From a virus, in IMG/VR virus record IMGVR_UViG_3300025778_000029, positions 1 through 42,416 of that record: 42,416 nucleotides of DNA. The stretch is one strand, 5' to 3'. Within the stretch, counting starts at the first letter, position 1, and every line of letters begins with the position of its first letter. This document shows, piece by piece, positions 4,049 to 42,416 of this stretch. The notes below the pieces were generated by a model that made no database searches, was not told the DNA's origin, and worked only from the letters and a program-made list of their open reading frames with translations. A program made the translations under genes and the position numbers.

Positions 4049-6658
4049 ATGAGACTCACGGGAAGCCGTCGTTCGCTTCTTGCGGGAACCTCATTAGCAT
4101 CCTCGGTCCCCAAAGGAAGTTCAGTATACATAGCAAATGCCACGGGATTTTATTCAATAACTTCCCCGGCATTTGCTAATTATGGAACAATTCAATTATG
4201 GGGAAGCGGAGCCGGTTCCGGCGCTGCTAATTCCACTGTGGCCGGTTCGGGAGGCGGGGGCGGAGGTTACCTAATCATTGACAATACTTCGGTTTCGCCA
4301 AATACGACATATAATTATGCTTTGTATCAGCCTTATTATGACCCTTATGCTGCTAATGTCACAATGCTTCTCCCATTTTCGGGAACGGTAGGAAGCGTTC
4401 CTCAAGTTATTGAAGGAAGCATGTCCACCGTGACTTTAACTCACGCAGGAACGGGTTCTGGAACAGACGGTTATTGTGAGAATACTGTTACAAAATGGGG
4501 AACAACTGCTTGTTATACAAATGGCGGTTCAAATTCCGCATCGTGGCAAATTACTCCCGGTTCATCTCTTTCCGGAGATTTTACATTTGAATTGTTCATC
4601 TATCCCATGGCGGGAGCAACAAATCAGTTCATTTTCTCAAATTATCTTGGACCAGTTTGTAATGGAGGCGGAAGCAATCCTGCTCAGTTTCTTTTCTGGT
4701 TGAATAATGGCGTTTTGACAGTTGGAAATCCTGCGGGAAGTTTCCTTGTTGGAGGTTCCGTAACATATAATACTTGGCACCATGTGGCTTGGACTCGTAA
4801 GAGTGGAGTTAGTTCCTTATGGTTGGATGGTGTTTTACAAGCAACTTCATCCGCATATACTGGAACTGCCTTGAGTTGCTATAATATTAATAATCCAGTT
4901 TCTATTAAACTTTGGATTTCAGGCTACGAATATACTGGTTTGTATCAGTTCACAGGATACTATCAGGATATGCGAGTGACAAGTGTTGCTCGCTATACCG
5001 CAAACTTCACTGTCAACACCTCTTCATATTCTCAAATTGCGGGCTATAGCGCATGGTATGGCACCTCAACAAGCGTTTCGGTTGCTCAGGCCAACGCGGG
5101 CGTTCTTCCCGGTGTGGGAGCATCTGGGGGCGCTGGCGGGGGTGTTATTGGCAACGGTATCACTTACAGTGCTGTAGGAAGCAATGGAACATCCTATGCT
5201 GGAACAACTCCGGGTAATGGCGGTAATAGTGGCGGGGGCGCTTTGGGTGGTATTGCCAATGGAACTGCCAATGCGAATGCAGGAGCAAATCCGGGAGGAG
5301 GTTCTTCGGGACAACCTGTCAATGGAAATGCCGTTGTGGGAGGATATCCACAAATTCAAGTCAATTGGTATTCAGACCCGCCTCCATCTTTGACACCATT
5401 TACATCAAATGCAATTGGTTATCAATCCGTTACGGCTCCTGCGGGAGCAAAATATGCCAGCATTGAATTGTGGGGAGCAGGAGGAAACTCTGGCTTTGCA
5501 AATGCTATTTCTAATAGTGCCGGTTCCGGGGGTGGCGGAGGTGGTGTAGTCATCTCAAATATTGCCGTGAATGCTGGTCAAGGATATAATTTTGCATTGT
5601 ATCAGGCACAACAAGACCCTTATTATAACAAAGTAACATGTTTGATTCCTTTCACAGGTCCGCCTATTAATTCAAGAGCAAATCCGCCAAAAGTTATTTG
5701 GGGAGCCATGAATACGGTCACCATCGGTTCTGCCGGGGGCGTGAATGATGGTTATATTCAGAATTCAGTAACAAAGTGGGGAACACAGGCTGGTTATCTT
5801 GCGGGAGCGCAGGGTTCATCTTCTGGATATGGAAACTGGTGGCAGATTAGTCCGGTTGTTCCCATGACCGGAGATTTGACTATTGAATTCTGGGCATGGA
5901 CTGCTTCGGCTTCGGGTCAACAAATCATTATGGGAAGCACGGCGGGTATTGGCCCTGCTGACCCAAACCAAGTTCAGATTGTTAGAAATGGTGGTGGGGT
6001 TGTTTTGACATTAGGTAGTGCAAGCATTACCGGAGCAGCCCTTTCATTTAATACATGGCACCATTATGCATGGGTTAGAAAATCAGGAGTAAACACACTC
6101 TATCTTGATGGTGTGGCTCAAGGGACTGACACAACCTTTGCTTCAAATTCTGTTTTGAGTGCATCTACGCAACTTTGGCTTGGCAACAATCAATTTGGTC
6201 CTGCACTTAATAACATTTATTGTTGGGGCGGATATATGAATGATTTCCGTATCACAAAGGATGTTGCAAGATATACTTCAAACTTTACACCGCCAACTTC
6301 TTCATATGCTGTCTCAGAGGGTTATTCTGCATTCTACGGTAATGTTTTGACAGATACTGCTATATTCCAAGCCAACGCGGGTCAAACTCCTTATGTCGGA
6401 AACGCAGGAGGAGCGGGCGGAACTGTTTCGGGAACATACACTATTGGGGTTGCGGGTTCAAGTGGAACTGCAAATTCAACAACAACTCAAGGCTCGGGTG
6501 GAAATTCTGGCGGGGGAGCATTGGGAGGCATTGGTTCTTCAAATGCAACTGTGGCCAATGCTGGTCAATCTCCCGGAGGCGGAGCATCGGGCCAACCTTA
6601 TGCGGGAAATGCTGTATCGGGAGGCTCCCCACAAATTACAATTACTTGGATTGGATAA
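4049..6658 (+). CDS. Large adhesin with duplicated glycine-rich and LamG-like lectin modules
   Basis: The 869-aa protein is an internal tandem duplication. Each half begins with a beta segment (GTIQLWGSGAG and ASIELWGAGGN), a poly-Gly stretch, a concanavalin A/LamG-like domain (about residues 140-320 and 590-750) with the hallmark NTWHHVAWTRKSG / NTWHHYAWVRKSG and SxLWLDGV / NTLYLDGV strands, and a second glycine-rich region (GGNSGGGALGG in both halves). LamG-like domains commonly bind glycans. The start ATG at 4049 follows the previous stop with one base between. A fibre-tip receptor-binding role is inferred from the domains and from neighbouring adhesin genes. Confidence 0.75.
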   Translation: MRLTGSRRSLLAGTSLASSVPKGSSVYIANATGFYSITSPAFANYGTIQLWGSGAGSGAANSTVAGSGGGGGGYLIIDNTSVSPNTTYNYALYQPYYDPYAANVTMLLPFSGTVGSVPQVIEGSMSTVTLTHAGTGSGTDGYCENTVTKWGTTACYTNGGSNSASWQITPGSSLSGDFTFELFIYPMAGATNQFIFSNYLGPVCNGGGSNPAQFLFWLNNGVLTVGNPAGSFLVGGSVTYNTWHHVAWTRKSGVSSLWLDGVLQATSSAYTGTALSCYNINNPVSIKLWISGYEYTGLYQFTGYYQDMRVTSVARYTANFTVNTSSYSQIAGYSAWYGTSTSVSVAQANAGVLPGVGASGGAGGGVIGNGITYSAVGSNGTSYAGTTPGNGGNSGGGALGGIANGTANANAGANPGGGSSGQPVNGNAVVGGYPQIQVNWYSDPPPSLTPFTSNAIGYQSVTAPAGAKYASIELWGAGGNSGFANAISNSAGSGGGGGGVVISNIAVNAGQGYNFALYQAQQDPYYNKVTCLIPFTGPPINSRANPPKVIWGAMNTVTIGSAGGVNDGYIQNSVTKWGTQAGYLAGAQGSSSGYGNWWQISPVVPMTGDLTIEFWAWTASASGQQIIMGSTAGIGPADPNQVQIVRNGGGVVLTLGSASITGAALSFNTWHHYAWVRKSGVNTLYLDGVAQGTDTTFASNSVLSASTQLWLGNNQFGPALNNIYCWGGYMNDFRITKDVARYTSNFTPPTSSYAVSEGYSAFYGNVLTDTAIFQANAGQTPYVGNAGGAGGTVSGTYTIGVAGSSGTANSTTTQGSGGNSGGGALGGIGSSNATVANAGQSPGGGASGQPYAGNAVSGGSPQITITWIG

Positions 6659-20499: not shown

Positions 20500-20862
20500 T
20501 TATAGGATAGTGTTAGAAGTTCTATCAATCAGAATATAGTTAACTTTCACCACATCAAATTGTGCCAAATGGTCCAAAACCACTTGTGGGTCAAATTCCT
20601 TACAACTATAAATGTCAAAATTTATAAATGGTTCGTCTAATTCAGACCATGAATGAAAACTTGCATGTGAGGTTTCTAAACAAACAATGCCCGTAACCCC
20701 TTCATTTCCGAAAGTGTTACATTCAACAGCGTCCGCAGGGATTAATATTTTCATATCAATCAACTCTACTAAATTTTTAAGCCATTTGCGGCCCTTCTTG
20801 GCTGTCATTGGAGGCTTCTTTACGATAGCCTTTCCGAGCATGTGTTTGTGAATTAACTCCAT
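20500..20862 (-). CDS. speD: S-adenosylmethionine decarboxylase (SpeD) homologue, pyruvoyl-type
   Basis: The 120-aa product carries the bacterial SpeD signature: GVTGIVCLETSHASFHSWSE followed by a FDIYSC strand. Aligned to the family, it keeps the serine that becomes the pyruvoyl group (Ser65 in TSH), the processing histidine (His70) and the proton-donor cysteine (Cys87). The residue before the serine is Thr instead of the usual Glu, the usual Pro in HTWPE is Ser73, and there are two extra residues before the cysteine. SpeD makes decarboxylated AdoMet for spermidine synthesis; some homologues decarboxylate arginine or ornithine instead. It is the last gene of the minus operon, abutting the nuclease gene (TAG then ATG). 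No spermidine synthase was seen. Confidence 0.8.
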   Translation of the reverse strand: MELIHKHMLGKAIVKKPPMTAKKGRKWLKNLVELIDMKILIPADAVECNTFGNEGVTGIVCLETSHASFHSWSELDEPFINFDIYSCKEFDPQVVLDHLAQFDVVKVNYILIDRTSNTIL

Positions 20863-27821: not shown

Positions 27822-28211
27822 TCAAACTTCATACGTGTAGAAAGTTTTACCTTTCCAAAATTTAGCACATTCAAACATGTGCCTTCTCTCATATTTTGCC
27901 AAGTCATCTTCCGACAGAAGTTTCAAAGCCACATCGGAATTTTCGGAATCACGAAAGGATTCATATTGCGACAAATCCATCATTCTGTCAGGATTTTCGG
28001 AATAGAATGTAAGCCGCTCTTGTTCAAGAGCCTTTGCCGCCTCCATATACCTTTTCAAAGTGCTTGAAGACACGAAATACCCTTGTGTCTTCATATACTC
28101 TAAAAAGTGTTTAAAGGTAGGGCGAGATTCCCCAACAGTCCACAATCCTTCACGGTAGTGGTTGAGAACTTCCGGCCCGCGAATGAAAGCCGTTTTAAAT
28201 TCGTTGTGCAT
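27822..28211 (-). CDS. Unknown 129-aa helical protein
   Basis: The product (MHNEFKTAFIRGPEVLNHYR ... TFKHFLEYMKTQGYFVSSST ... LKRYMEAAKALEQERLTFYS) is helical, basic at the N-terminus and acidic at the C-terminus, with a possible HTH at about residues 33-58 (THFLEYMK/VSSSTLKRYMEA-like). A consensus promoter lies just upstream and a terminator downstream, so it is a single-gene early unit. A regulator is possible but not established. Confidence 0.65.
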   Translation of the reverse strand: MHNEFKTAFIRGPEVLNHYREGLWTVGESRPTFKHFLEYMKTQGYFVSSSTLKRYMEAAKALEQERLTFYSENPDRMMDLSQYESFRDSENSDVALKLLSEDDLAKYERRHMFECAKFWKGKTFYTYEV

Positions 28212-28252: not shown

Positions 28253-28281
28253 GATATAGTCTTTTTATTTTCTCTTGTCAA
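28253..28281 (-). promoter_or_regulatory. Sigma-70-type promoter
   Basis: TTGACA (28276-28281, minus strand), 17-nt spacer, TATATC (28253-28258), also readable as TTGAC-N17-CTATAT. It points at the gene starting at 28211. Confidence 0.8.
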
Positions 28282-28311
28282 CGGATTTTACGAAAAAAAG
28301 TTGGTCCAAAA

Positions 28312-28339: not shown

Positions 28340-28349
28340 TCAAATTAAC

Positions 28350-28414
28350 GAAAAAATCCCCCGGCAAGTTGGTTACCGGGGGATTAAGTTAAACTACAAG
28401 GAGTCCTCTCGGAC
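28350..28414 (-). ncRNA. Candidate small RNA of about 65 nt
   Basis: A near-consensus promoter (28421-28449) predicts a start at about 28414, and a perfect terminator ends the RNA near 28350. The predicted RNA begins with a GUCC-GAGA-GGAC hairpin capped by a GNRA tetraloop, then a single-stranded linker with CUCCUUG, then the GC-rich terminator hairpin. There is no ORF. CUCCUUG is complementary to the CAAGGAG ribosome binding site at 30186-30192. The boundaries are read from sequence; expression and targets are inference. Confidence 0.5.
28355..28385 (-). terminator. Rho-independent terminator
   Basis: On the minus strand AATCCCCCGG (28385-28376) pairs perfectly with CCGGGGGATT (28364-28355) across an 11-nt loop and is followed by a T-run (28350-28356). 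It can end both the small RNA and the operon at 28446-28873. Confidence 0.9.
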
Positions 28415-28420
28415 AAGACC

Positions 28421-28449
28421 TATATAAGGTCGGAAGAAGGGTTTGTCAA
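28421..28449 (-). promoter_or_regulatory. Near-consensus promoter without a downstream gene
   Basis: TTGACA (28444-28449, minus), 17-nt spacer, TATATA (28421-28426). It overlaps the stop codon of the 54-aa gene and drives only the 65-nt unit before the terminator at 28355. Confidence 0.7.
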
Positions 28450-28610
28450 GAGGCGAAACAACCCGGTGTGAAAGGTTCATAATCTTTTTGATAACGAAAA
28501 ATCACATGGGTCTTATATCTGAAATACGGCTCGTGAAGCCTTATACCACGACGAGTCAATCGTGTCCAGAACCATGGACAGTTTCTTGGGCGTTCAGGTT
28601 TGTATGTCAT
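28446..28610 (-). CDS. 54-aa basic protein
   Basis: ATG 28610 overlaps the TGA of the upstream gene as ATGA, with AAAGGACAACCGAA as ribosome binding site. The product (MTYKPERPRNCPWFWTRLTR followed by RGIRLHEPYFRYK) is strongly basic and aromatic-rich, consistent with nucleic-acid or protein inhibition roles of small early phage proteins. The coupling is the main support. No family was recognised. Confidence 0.6.
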   Translation of the reverse strand: MTYKPERPRNCPWFWTRLTRRGIRLHEPYFRYKTHVIFRYQKDYEPFTPGCFAS

Positions 28611-28873
28611 TTCGGTTGTCCTTTTTCAATCCATTGGACAAAGATATTCTTGATGTCTCTTGTGCCAAGGTCTTGCTTACCAAACCATTTGGCTTTCTTT
28701 TCATAGAAGGCAGAGTTATTGAACTTCTGCCAAGTCTCTTGGTCTGTTTTCAGCATCTCGCAAGCGGACAAATCACCCCACTTTTGCATCTCGTCTTTAT
28801 ATTTTGGGTCACGAGTTTCGTGCCAATTTAAAAAGGCTTCAAAAAGTTTGTTGTCATATTCACTTCTGGCCAT
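28607..28873 (-). CDS. Unknown 88-aa early protein
   Basis: The start is set at ATG 28873 because the longer in-frame codons lie inside or upstream of a good promoter whose -10 is at 28902-28907, and AAAAAGGA sits just upstream of 28873. The product (MARSEYDNKLFEAFLNWHET ... WGDLSACEMLKTDQETWQKF ... GTRDIKNIFVQWIEKGQPK) is helical, charged and Trp-rich. It is the first gene of a two-gene unit ending at the 28355 terminator. No motif was recognised. Confidence 0.65.
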   Translation of the reverse strand: MARSEYDNKLFEAFLNWHETRDPKYKDEMQKWGDLSACEMLKTDQETWQKFNNSAFYEKKAKWFGKQDLGTRDIKNIFVQWIEKGQPK

Positions 28874-28901
28874 CGGTTCAATCCTTTTTCCGATTTGTCC
28901 C

Positions 28902-28930
28902 TTCATAGCTTGGCAAAAAACTTTCGTCAA
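28902..28930 (-). promoter_or_regulatory. Early promoter for the 88-aa gene
   Basis: TTGACG (28925-28930, minus), 17-nt spacer, TATGAA (28902-28907); the start of transcription is expected near 28895, about 22 nt before ATG 28873. Confidence 0.65.
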
Positions 28931-28965
28931 CAAAAAACTTTTTTAAATTTTTTTCGCAAAAGCCA

Positions 28966-29023: not shown

Positions 29024-29569
29024 ATGACCGGACTTCTTATTCACCCCTTCGGCCACAATCCCAAAATCCGTTCGGGTGGGGTTTATGATGTAGAACTCGT
29101 TTCAGACTACATGTCAGCAGTTGCTGACCAAGCCACCGAATGGCAGAATGAACTGATGTATTCCAATCCGGACGGTTTCGGGGTGGACGATATCACGGCC
29201 CTCATCAAGAAGACTGCCACCAACAAGAACGCAGAAGTCTTTTTCTTCAATGTGAGTGACACCACTCAGCCGGTCACAGGCTTCCATGATTACAAGGATT
29301 CGGACCCCAAGTGTGAAATGAACGCCGCAGTTCTCGTGGTCATCGTCGCCAAGGACCGTTCGTGGAACATTCAAATGGTTGTGTATCTGGAAGCCGTGTT
29401 CGCTCGCGGTTATCGCGACGATGACTCCGAGTATTTCGCGGACAATGTGGATTTCATGTATGTCCAAGTTGGCTACGAATACCAACACGATGAAGCCTTT
29501 AAGGCAATGAAGCGGCACATGAGCGGAGCAACCCGCAAGGTGCTGAAGCCTATGCAAGTAGCAGCATAA
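29024..29569 (+). CDS. Unknown 181-aa early protein
   Basis: The product (IHPFGHNPKIRSGGVYDVEL ... AEVFFFNVSDTTQPVTGFHD ... AAVLVVIVAKDRSWNIQMVV) is acidic, alpha/beta, without membrane or catalytic motifs that I recognise. Codon use here is more GC-rich than in the late genes. GGAGAGACGCAAATG gives the start. Its own promoter lies upstream and a TTCG-tetraloop terminator directly downstream, so it forms an independent cassette. Confidence 0.7.
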   Translation: MTGLLIHPFGHNPKIRSGGVYDVELVSDYMSAVADQATEWQNELMYSNPDGFGVDDITALIKKTATNKNAEVFFFNVSDTTQPVTGFHDYKDSDPKCEMNAAVLVVIVAKDRSWNIQMVVYLEAVFARGYRDDDSEYFADNVDFMYVQVGYEYQHDEAFKAMKRHMSGATRKVLKPMQVAA

Positions 29570-30167: not shown

Positions 30168-30198
30168 TCTTCATAACGAAACGAGCAAGGAGGCTCCA

Positions 30199-30504
30199 AT
30201 GCGTCAGATTGATAACATGAAGGTTCGCATCATCCTCAAGGCCATGTTGGCGGGGGAGCATGATATTGAGACCATCGCCAAGAAGGTCGCGGAATACATG
30301 AATGTTGATGAAGGCTTTGGCCACATTCTCGTAAGAAACGAGATTGAAGAACTCATCAACAAGGGCTGGATTGAGCGCAAGACTTTTCTCTATTTCAAGA
30401 AGGATTCTCTTGAACTTACTGAAAAGGGCCAGTATGTTAAAGACGCTAACATTGACCTTGAGGATGAACTCATGGTCCAGATGTATGGTTTGGAGAGCCT
30501 GTGA
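30199..30504 (+). CDS. Winged-helix-like small early protein
   Basis: ATG 30199 with AAGGAGG at 30187-30193 is chosen; a longer frame from 30163 would start inside the promoter. The 101-aa product (KVRIILKAMLAGEHDIETIA ... NVDEGFGHILVRNEIEELIN ... ELTEKGQYVKDANI) has the helix-helix-wing look of winged-helix domains, with WIERKTFLYFKKDSLELTEKG as recognition helix end and wing. A transcriptional role is plausible given the repeat array upstream. It leads a tightly packed operon to 31822. Confidence 0.65.
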   Translation: MRQIDNMKVRIILKAMLAGEHDIETIAKKVAEYMNVDEGFGHILVRNEIEELINKGWIERKTFLYFKKDSLELTEKGQYVKDANIDLEDELMVQMYGLESL

Positions 30505-33035: not shown

Positions 33036-34626
33036 TCTTGAAATATTAAAGAAACTCAAGTTTGATTTTCCATATTTTGCAAGGAATGCTTTGCAAGTAA
33101 AGGATAAGTCAGGCAAGCTTGTAGCATTTGATTTGAATCGTTCGCAAATGTTTGTGCATGAAAGATTAGAAGCACAAAGAAAAAGAACTGGTAAAGTAAG
33201 AGCCATTATTTTAAAGGCTCGTCAAGTAGGATGTTCAACATACATTCAAGGACGATTCTATCATAAAATTTGTTATGCTTCACAACAATCCTCTCCTCAA
33301 GCATTCATCATGACTCATGCTTCAGATTCTACTAATGCTCTATTCAGCATGACAAAGAATTTTGCAGAGTGTCATTCAGTTATTGGCAAACCAACAATTG
33401 ATACAAGTAATGCTAAAGAATTAAAATTCATGGAGAATAAAGGTTCATACAAAATTGGAACCGCAGGAGCAAAAGAAGTTGGAAGAGGTATGAACAACCA
33501 ATACTTGCATCTATCAGAAGTTGCATTCTGGGAAAATGGTGCAAGCCATGTTTCAGCATTGATGCAAACCGTTGGTGATGACCCCGGCACTGAAATCATT
33601 ATTGAATCAACTGCAAATGGTATGGGTAATCTATTCTATGATTTAACCATGTCGGCAATTGATAATAAGAACAACTTTGAAGTTATCTTTATGCCATGGT
33701 TCTGGTATGAAGGTTATGCAACAGTTCCTCCAAAAGGTTGGCATAATAATATTCCTCATGCTTGGCAAGATTATGGTGCACAATTTCAATTAAACTATGC
33801 TCAACTATACTGGGCATCTGAAAAGAATGCAATCATGGCCGCAAGTATTGGAGCATCATATGATGAACCATGCTGGACATTTAGACAAGAGTATCCATGC
33901 ACATTGGCTGAAGCATTTGTTTCAAGTGGTAATAGTTACATTCCTCCACATTTGGTTGCAAAAGCAAGAAAACCTGAAGAGGAAGTTTTACCTAATGGTC
34001 CGCTCATTATTGGAGTAGACCCTAGTAGAAATAAAGATAAGACAGGCATTATTAGTAGACGCGGTAGAAGAATGGGTAAAGAGATTTGTATAAGACTTGA
34101 CCCAGAAGGTTCTACAGAATATGTGTCACAATATGTTGCACAACTTATAAGAGATTGGAATCCTAAGATGGTTAATATTGACGTAACCGGAGTGGGAGCA
34201 GGAGTATATGATAATCTATTAGCATGGGGCCATGGTCATTGTATCAATGCAGTAAATTTTGCAACCAAAAGTTCTATCAGGAATCCGGATGGTTCTCCCA
34301 AGTATGCTAATAAGAGAGCCGAAATGTATGGTGAAATGCTTGAATGGTTCAATCAGGATATGCCTGTTCAAATACCTGATGATGATACATTGCAAGCAGA
34401 TATTTGTGCACCAGAATGGGGAAATGGCAAGACATCCTTTACAACCAATGGTTCCTTACAATTGGAAAGCAAGGATAAGATACAAGAGAGATTAAAGCGT
34501 TCCCCAGACCTCGGAGACGCTGCTGCATTATGTTTTGCAGTTCCTATTGAAAGTATGATGAGTTTCAATAATTCACCGGTTGCAATCACTAGAGGCAAAC
34601 CTAAGAACAGTATGACAGGATATTGA
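33019..34626 (+). CDS. terL: Large terminase subunit
   Basis: The 535-aa product has both domains: ATPase with Walker A KARQVGCSTYIQG (about residues 65-77), Walker B LHLSEVAFWE (about 164), and coupling motif IIESTANGMG near 195; and an RNase H-like nuclease with GVDPSRNKDKTGI (about 331), VNIDVTGVGAGVYD (about 385) and SPDLGDAAALCFAV (about 497) supplying the metal-binding aspartates. It cuts concatemers and pumps DNA into the procapsid through the portal at 34854. Confidence 0.95.
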   Translation: MNNPPNLEILKKLKFDFPYFARNALQVKDKSGKLVAFDLNRSQMFVHERLEAQRKRTGKVRAIILKARQVGCSTYIQGRFYHKICYASQQSSPQAFIMTHASDSTNALFSMTKNFAECHSVIGKPTIDTSNAKELKFMENKGSYKIGTAGAKEVGRGMNNQYLHLSEVAFWENGASHVSALMQTVGDDPGTEIIIESTANGMGNLFYDLTMSAIDNKNNFEVIFMPWFWYEGYATVPPKGWHNNIPHAWQDYGAQFQLNYAQLYWASEKNAIMAASIGASYDEPCWTFRQEYPCTLAEAFVSSGNSYIPPHLVAKARKPEEEVLPNGPLIIGVDPSRNKDKTGIISRRGRRMGKEICIRLDPEGSTEYVSQYVAQLIRDWNPKMVNIDVTGVGAGVYDNLLAWGHGHCINAVNFATKSSIRNPDGSPKYANKRAEMYGEMLEWFNQDMPVQIPDDDTLQADICAPEWGNGKTSFTTNGSLQLESKDKIQERLKRSPDLGDAAALCFAVPIESMMSFNNSPVAITRGKPKNSMTGY

Positions 34627-41764: not shown

Positions 41765-42416
41765 TGTCTACTCTATTCATTGATGGATTTGATTGTTATC
41801 CCAACGTTTCTGACAGTTCAAATGGTCTACAAGCCTATTGGTCTGTTTACAACGGTTATGGCAATTTGCAAATTGCAAGCCCCGGAAGATTTGGAGGGCA
41901 ATGTGTCACAGCAAATGGTTATGTGAACGGAAATAACGGATATTTTCAAAAGGGTGTTGCTGCAACTTCAACATACACCATTGGATTTGCCACTCGTATG
42001 AATCAATTCATTACGGGAACAGTTGATTATTCCTTCCAATTTTCTTCTGCCAATATTGGCGTGGGAATGAATTCCAATCAACAATATTACATATATTCTG
42101 GAAGCACAACTTTAGCAACCGCTCCAAACTTTATTTCAGTGGGTTCTTGGCATTATCTTGAACTTGAAGTCAGCATTGGCTCGTCAGGATATGCAAATCT
42201 TTATGTTGATGGATTATTGCAAGCATCATTCACAGGTAACACAGGTTCAGGAACCATTACAAGTATTGGACTTGGATTGTTTGGGGCACAAGATACCAGT
42301 CACTCAACTAATCATTCTTTTGATGATGTTTATGTGTCAAACGTTGCCACGAGATATGGGGAAAGACGTGTTCAAACTCAAGTTGTAACTTCCGACGTTG
42401 CCGTGCAATTTACGCC
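41764..42416 (+). CDS. LamG-like virion adhesin, N-terminal part (runs off the window)
   Basis: ATG 41764 overlaps the upstream stop. The 217 visible codons begin MSTLFIDGFDCYPNVSDSSN and encode a concanavalin A/LamG-like domain (VGSWHYLELEVSIGSSGYAN, LYVDGLLQASFTG, SIGLGLFGAQDT, SFDDVYVSN). The last residues, RVQTQVVTSDVAVQFTP, match the first residues encoded at position 1, so the protein probably continues there in a circular or permuted genome. A host glycan-binding role is inferred from the fold. Confidence 0.75.
   Translation, partial: MSTLFIDGFDCYPNVSDSSNGLQAYWSVYNGYGNLQIASPGRFGGQCVTANGYVNGNNGYFQKGVAATSTYTIGFATRMNQFITGTVDYSFQFSSANIGVGMNSNQQYYIYSGSTTLATAPNFISVGSWHYLELEVSIGSSGYANLYVDGLLQASFTGNTGSGTITSIGLGLFGAQDTSHSTNHSFDDVYVSNVATRYGERRVQTQVVTSDVAVQFT

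Follow-up and report, generated by a model that had tools for sequence, protein, structure and literature searches.

The locus lies on the minus strand of the window, by which we mean the whole 42,416-nt stretch of phage DNA that was analysed, and opens with a two-gene leftward operon (28446..28873), made of genes 28873-28607 and 28610-28446, which are joined by an ATGA overlap and are preceded by their own promoter-like box, TTGACG-N17-TATGAA, at 28930. Where this operon ends, the −35 box of a promoter, P1 (CTTGAC-N17-TTATAT, 28421..28450), overlaps the stop codon of ORF 28610-28446. On the same strand follow the elements of a predicted 65-nt RNA (28349..28413), whose limits were placed from the spacing between promoter and terminator, with a start at about 28413 and an end in a T-run at about 28350: (i) a 5'-terminal hairpin GUCC-GAGA-GGAC with a GNRA loop (28402..28413), identified from sequence and fold; (ii) a linker (28386..28403), predicted to be single-stranded, which opens with CUCCUUG and is then A/U-rich; (iii) an intrinsic terminator with its U-run (28349..28385). 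Further downstream, the minus-strand promoter P2 (GTTGAC-N17-CTATAT, 28253..28282) fronts the orphan gene 28211-27822, 3' of which there is an inverted repeat with convergent genes. A previous reading of this DNA, made from the sequence only, had stated that no gene follows P1; this holds as far as the terminator, but gene 28211-27822 lies beyond it with its own P2: a strong terminator and a separate promoter stand between P1 and the next gene.

The genome belongs to a freshwater phage, is podovirus-like and measures 42.4 kb, with an SU10-type portal and a phage terminase. Since independent contigs cross from the end of the window to its start, the window is circular and nearly complete. The stretch 42249-42416 and positions 1-50 represent the same sequence in two diverged versions, and closure of the circle probably took place across a repeat. 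Sixteen SNPs were counted between the contigs of this phage, all at position 33483 or higher, and therefore the population variation is uninformative about the promoter-RNA-terminator unit; 10 of them fall in the last 168 bases of the window. The terminase and portal genes are on the plus strand and the 65-nt RNA unit on the minus strand. An alphaproteobacterial host is plausible, because portal proteins related to this one are encoded in genomes of Phenylobacterium and Sphingomonas, as well as in phages of Caulobacter, Pelagibacter and Roseobacter. Elsewhere in the window, ORF 20500-20862 (minus strand) matches the phage S-adenosylmethionine decarboxylase family phrog_3125 (E 7e-14), an unusual metabolic gene for a phage.

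Exact and gapped DNA patterns run on viral contigs recovered the unit and its flanks only in two other contigs, which come from the same phage and are 100% identical, and a DNA search of phage records gave no match. The neighbouring proteins (27822-28211, 28607-28933 and 29024-29569), searched in viral and genome contigs and in phages, returned the same phage or nothing. The terminase and portal profiles retrieved many relatives, none of which, the same phage excepted, exceeded about 49% identity; in the nearest other phages the terminases were about 45% and the portals up to 49% identical. In 170 distant loci, 15 early-region and replication proteins gave no tblastn matches, and the genes next to the unit are without homologues there; the RNA was not found in those of the loci that were searched for it.

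P1 is built of TTGACA (28449-28444), a 17-nt spacer and TATATA (28426-28421), exactly the promoter that had been described, and agrees at 11 of 12 positions with the alphaproteobacterial sigma-70 consensus CTTGAC-N17-CTATAT. This consensus has been documented 5' of 101 Sinorhizobium sRNA candidates (PMC2873474) and is reported also in PMC7717549. With at most one mismatch to it, two sites are present in the genome, P1 (28450) and P2 (28282), against 0.1 expected with an N17 spacer and 0.43 with N16-18; moreover, shuffling the local 115 nt gave a box of the grade of P1 in 0.07% of cases. TTGACA-N16-18-TATA occurs three times in the genome, P1 included, with 0.48 expected; of the five boxes of the TTGACA-N16-18-TAT type, four are grouped in front of the early genes, at 28.2-30.2 kb. 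A generic E. coli promoter scan passed over P1 because TATATA does not have the T at position 6. The −10 box of P1 forms the centre of an inverted repeat, GACCT-TATAT-AGGTC (28417-28431, minus strand), possibly an operator or an extra hairpin in read-through RNA; an inspection by eye of the other early promoters revealed no such repeat.

The terminator stem (28385-28355) has a 10-bp GC-rich core, 13 pairs in total and a 5-nt loop, followed by six T, in full agreement with the 10-bp terminator and T-run noted before. Only two structures in the genome passed a strict test (7 or more pairs in the stem, 5 or more of them GC), this one being far the stronger. P1 and this terminator form the sole promoter-terminator unit in the window, and just three others were found in 2.1 Mb of distant relatives. 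The 67-nt stretch has a minimum free energy of −28 kcal/mol (z = −4.2), mostly due to the terminator; the 5' part of the RNA alone is matched in folding by 13% of shuffles. The GUCC-GAGA-GGAC hairpin indeed sits where the RNA is predicted to begin (28413-28402). In 1.8% of shuffles, a 4-bp hairpin rich in GC lies no more than 2 nt from a given start point; by itself, the hairpin is ordinary, not exceptional. CUCCUUG occupies the expected place in the linker (28403-28397), with its first C paired within the hairpin and an unpaired probability of 0.90-1.0 for UCCUUG in the predicted fold. This anti-Shine-Dalgarno stretch is short and occurs a single time in the RNA.

The rarity of near-consensus sites such as P1, together with the strength of the terminator, makes a short terminated transcript from P1 likely. 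Two of the features expected of a bacterial or phage intergenic sRNA gene were found here: by sequence, a promoter of its own, and its own Rho-independent terminator close by with no ORF between them. No ORF was found inside the unit, nor any plus-strand gene with a plausible start over 28349-28413. The plus-strand AAGGAG at 28398 was considered as a ribosome-binding site and rejected, because no start codon follows it at a suitable spacing. Promoter, hairpins, terminator and open anti-Shine-Dalgarno stretch are all read directly from the letters, and the unit can be regarded as a credible sRNA candidate, with a mechanism that we infer below. The proposal of a small-RNA unit is thus well supported, by the anatomy of promoter and terminator, as regards a stand-alone short RNA gene, but not as regards the dedicated target that had been assigned to it.

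That target was the early operon at 30199, of which the RNA was supposed to be an antisense repressor. The complementarity is real: CUCCUUG pairs exactly with CAAGGAG (30186..30192, plus strand), which lies in the leader of a winged-helix-like regulator gene (30199-30504) and is separated by 6 nt from its ATG at 30199. The computed duplex between RNA and leader reached −18.6 kcal/mol, third of 63 leaders by energy, but shuffled cores gave a stronger mean best score (−20.1 kcal/mol). Among shuffled cores, 94% had 7 nt of complementarity to one or more of the 63 leaders, as did 95% of segments taken at random from the genome, so the match is not significant, and two leaders match better, namely 21475 and 19980 (minus strand), over 8 nt (ACAAGGAG). 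A repressor dedicated to the 30199 regulator operon is, on these numbers, very improbable. In this leader the AAGGAG could also occupy the loop of a 4-bp hairpin, GAGC-AAGGAG-GCUC (30183-30196, plus strand), which is present in the centroid fold and absent from the minimum-energy fold. CUCCUU is complementary to the general Shine-Dalgarno core, and matches of at least 5 nt to the RNA core were observed in 45 of the 63 leaders, against a shuffle mean of 17.7 (p ~0.003, for a measure chosen post hoc). The linker looks like a generic anti-Shine-Dalgarno sequence.

We tentatively favour, as an explanation, a stand-alone phage sRNA gene whose product is a trans-acting anti-Shine-Dalgarno RNA. Transcription, its timing and the blocking of targets are inferred as follows: the host sigma-70 polymerase would initiate at P1, presumably early in infection, and would stop about 65 nt further on, at the strong terminator, releasing a stable RNA that has a GNRA hairpin at its 5' end, CUCCUUG exposed in its linker and a 3' stem with a U tail. 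This RNA would most likely cover, in trans, the Shine-Dalgarno sites of several phage and/or host mRNAs, without being dedicated to the 30199 operon, and the terminator would double as the end of the upstream leftward operon. A further step would be to see in the 65-nt RNA of an environmental phage, with its one exposed anti-Shine-Dalgarno stretch, a broad damper of translation that acts on many mRNAs, of host and phage alike, as the counterpart of the alphaproteobacterial anti-Shine-Dalgarno sRNAs; we consider this step speculative and rather unlikely. Few sRNAs are known from phages of environmental alphaproteobacteria. If expressed, the 65-nt unit would represent a compact phage riboregulator, and it raises the wider question of whether phages shift translation with general anti-Shine-Dalgarno RNAs.

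The terminator may have an ordinary job as well, that of ending the leftward operon 28873-28446, because it starts 60 nt past the last stop codon of the latter. Taken further, this distance and the promoter-like box that the operon has at 28930 would make of the hairpins simply its 3' UTR and terminator, P1 being then weak or fortuitous, or giving a by-product RNA with no function of its own. Such a plain operon end would however leave to chance a box that local shuffles hardly ever produce and that exceeds its expected number in the genome, and we regard it as possible but somewhat unlikely. GNRA hairpins and U-rich 3' tails suit protein or Hfq binding, and with such hairpins and a U-run present in the sequence the RNA might act through a bound protein, or sponge a host RNA or chaperone, with no pairing to ribosome-binding sites. 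Nothing specific speaks against this apart from the absence of an Rfam match; this mode of action is in our opinion distinctly unlikely.

P1 could also serve as another promoter for gene 28211-27822, blocked by the terminator until antitermination, as in lambda pR'-tR' and HK022 put, since promoter, nascent hairpins and terminator are in line with a gene on the same strand. In fact, in a distant relative, L042, such a unit is directly 5' of the terminase genes. In the present phage, however, only one small gene is found downstream, for which P2 is better placed, then come the inverted repeat and the convergent genes, and the late genes are on the opposite strand; an attenuator at this position is therefore improbable. 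The opposite orientation of the late genes also led us to reject, as the main reading, a use resembling that of lambda pR'.

The stand-alone anti-Shine-Dalgarno RNA appears to have its best analogues in alphaproteobacterial anti-Shine-Dalgarno RNAs such as NfeR1, and in the general class of phage sRNAs. With the alpha-r14 sRNAs of alphaproteobacteria (NfeR1, BbsR14) it shares a sigma-70 promoter of the CTTGAC-N17-CTATAT type and an anti-Shine-Dalgarno stretch that is left unpaired; the silencing of ntrB by NfeR1 takes place through an interaction of 8 nt (PMC10746234; PMC7717549). The alpha-r14 RNAs, however, have three hairpins, each with CCUCCUCCC, whereas here there are two hairpins and one shorter CUCCUUG, in the linker. 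In the whole window, no match attained the gathering score of an Rfam family, a result which bears on alpha-r14 only if Rfam models that family. Like lambda OOP, PreS, P22 sar and VP882 VpdS, the unit would be a short phage RNA gene in an early or regulatory region. In the case of P22 sar, pairing blocks translation initiation (PMC12197685). OOP and sar are antisense to their targets; by contrast, no gene lies antisense to this unit, which is unrelated to them in sequence. Since the defining features of the alpha-r14 family and of the cis-antisense OOP/sar group were tested and are not those of the unit, its sequence places it outside both.

The arrangement of a terminator close behind a promoter, giving a short RNA, is also that of lambda pR'-tR' (6S RNA). 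Lambda pR', however, stands before the late operon, with Q releasing it, whereas the unit is directed away from the late genes, and the proteins that were scanned include none resembling Q. The L042 unit (5788-5932, plus strand), in a phage whose terminase is 42% identical, consists of a TTGACA-N17-TATAAA promoter, three hairpins (the loop of one contains CUCCUC) and a strong terminator; to judge from this layout, it may be an attenuated late leader similar to lambda pR'-tR'.
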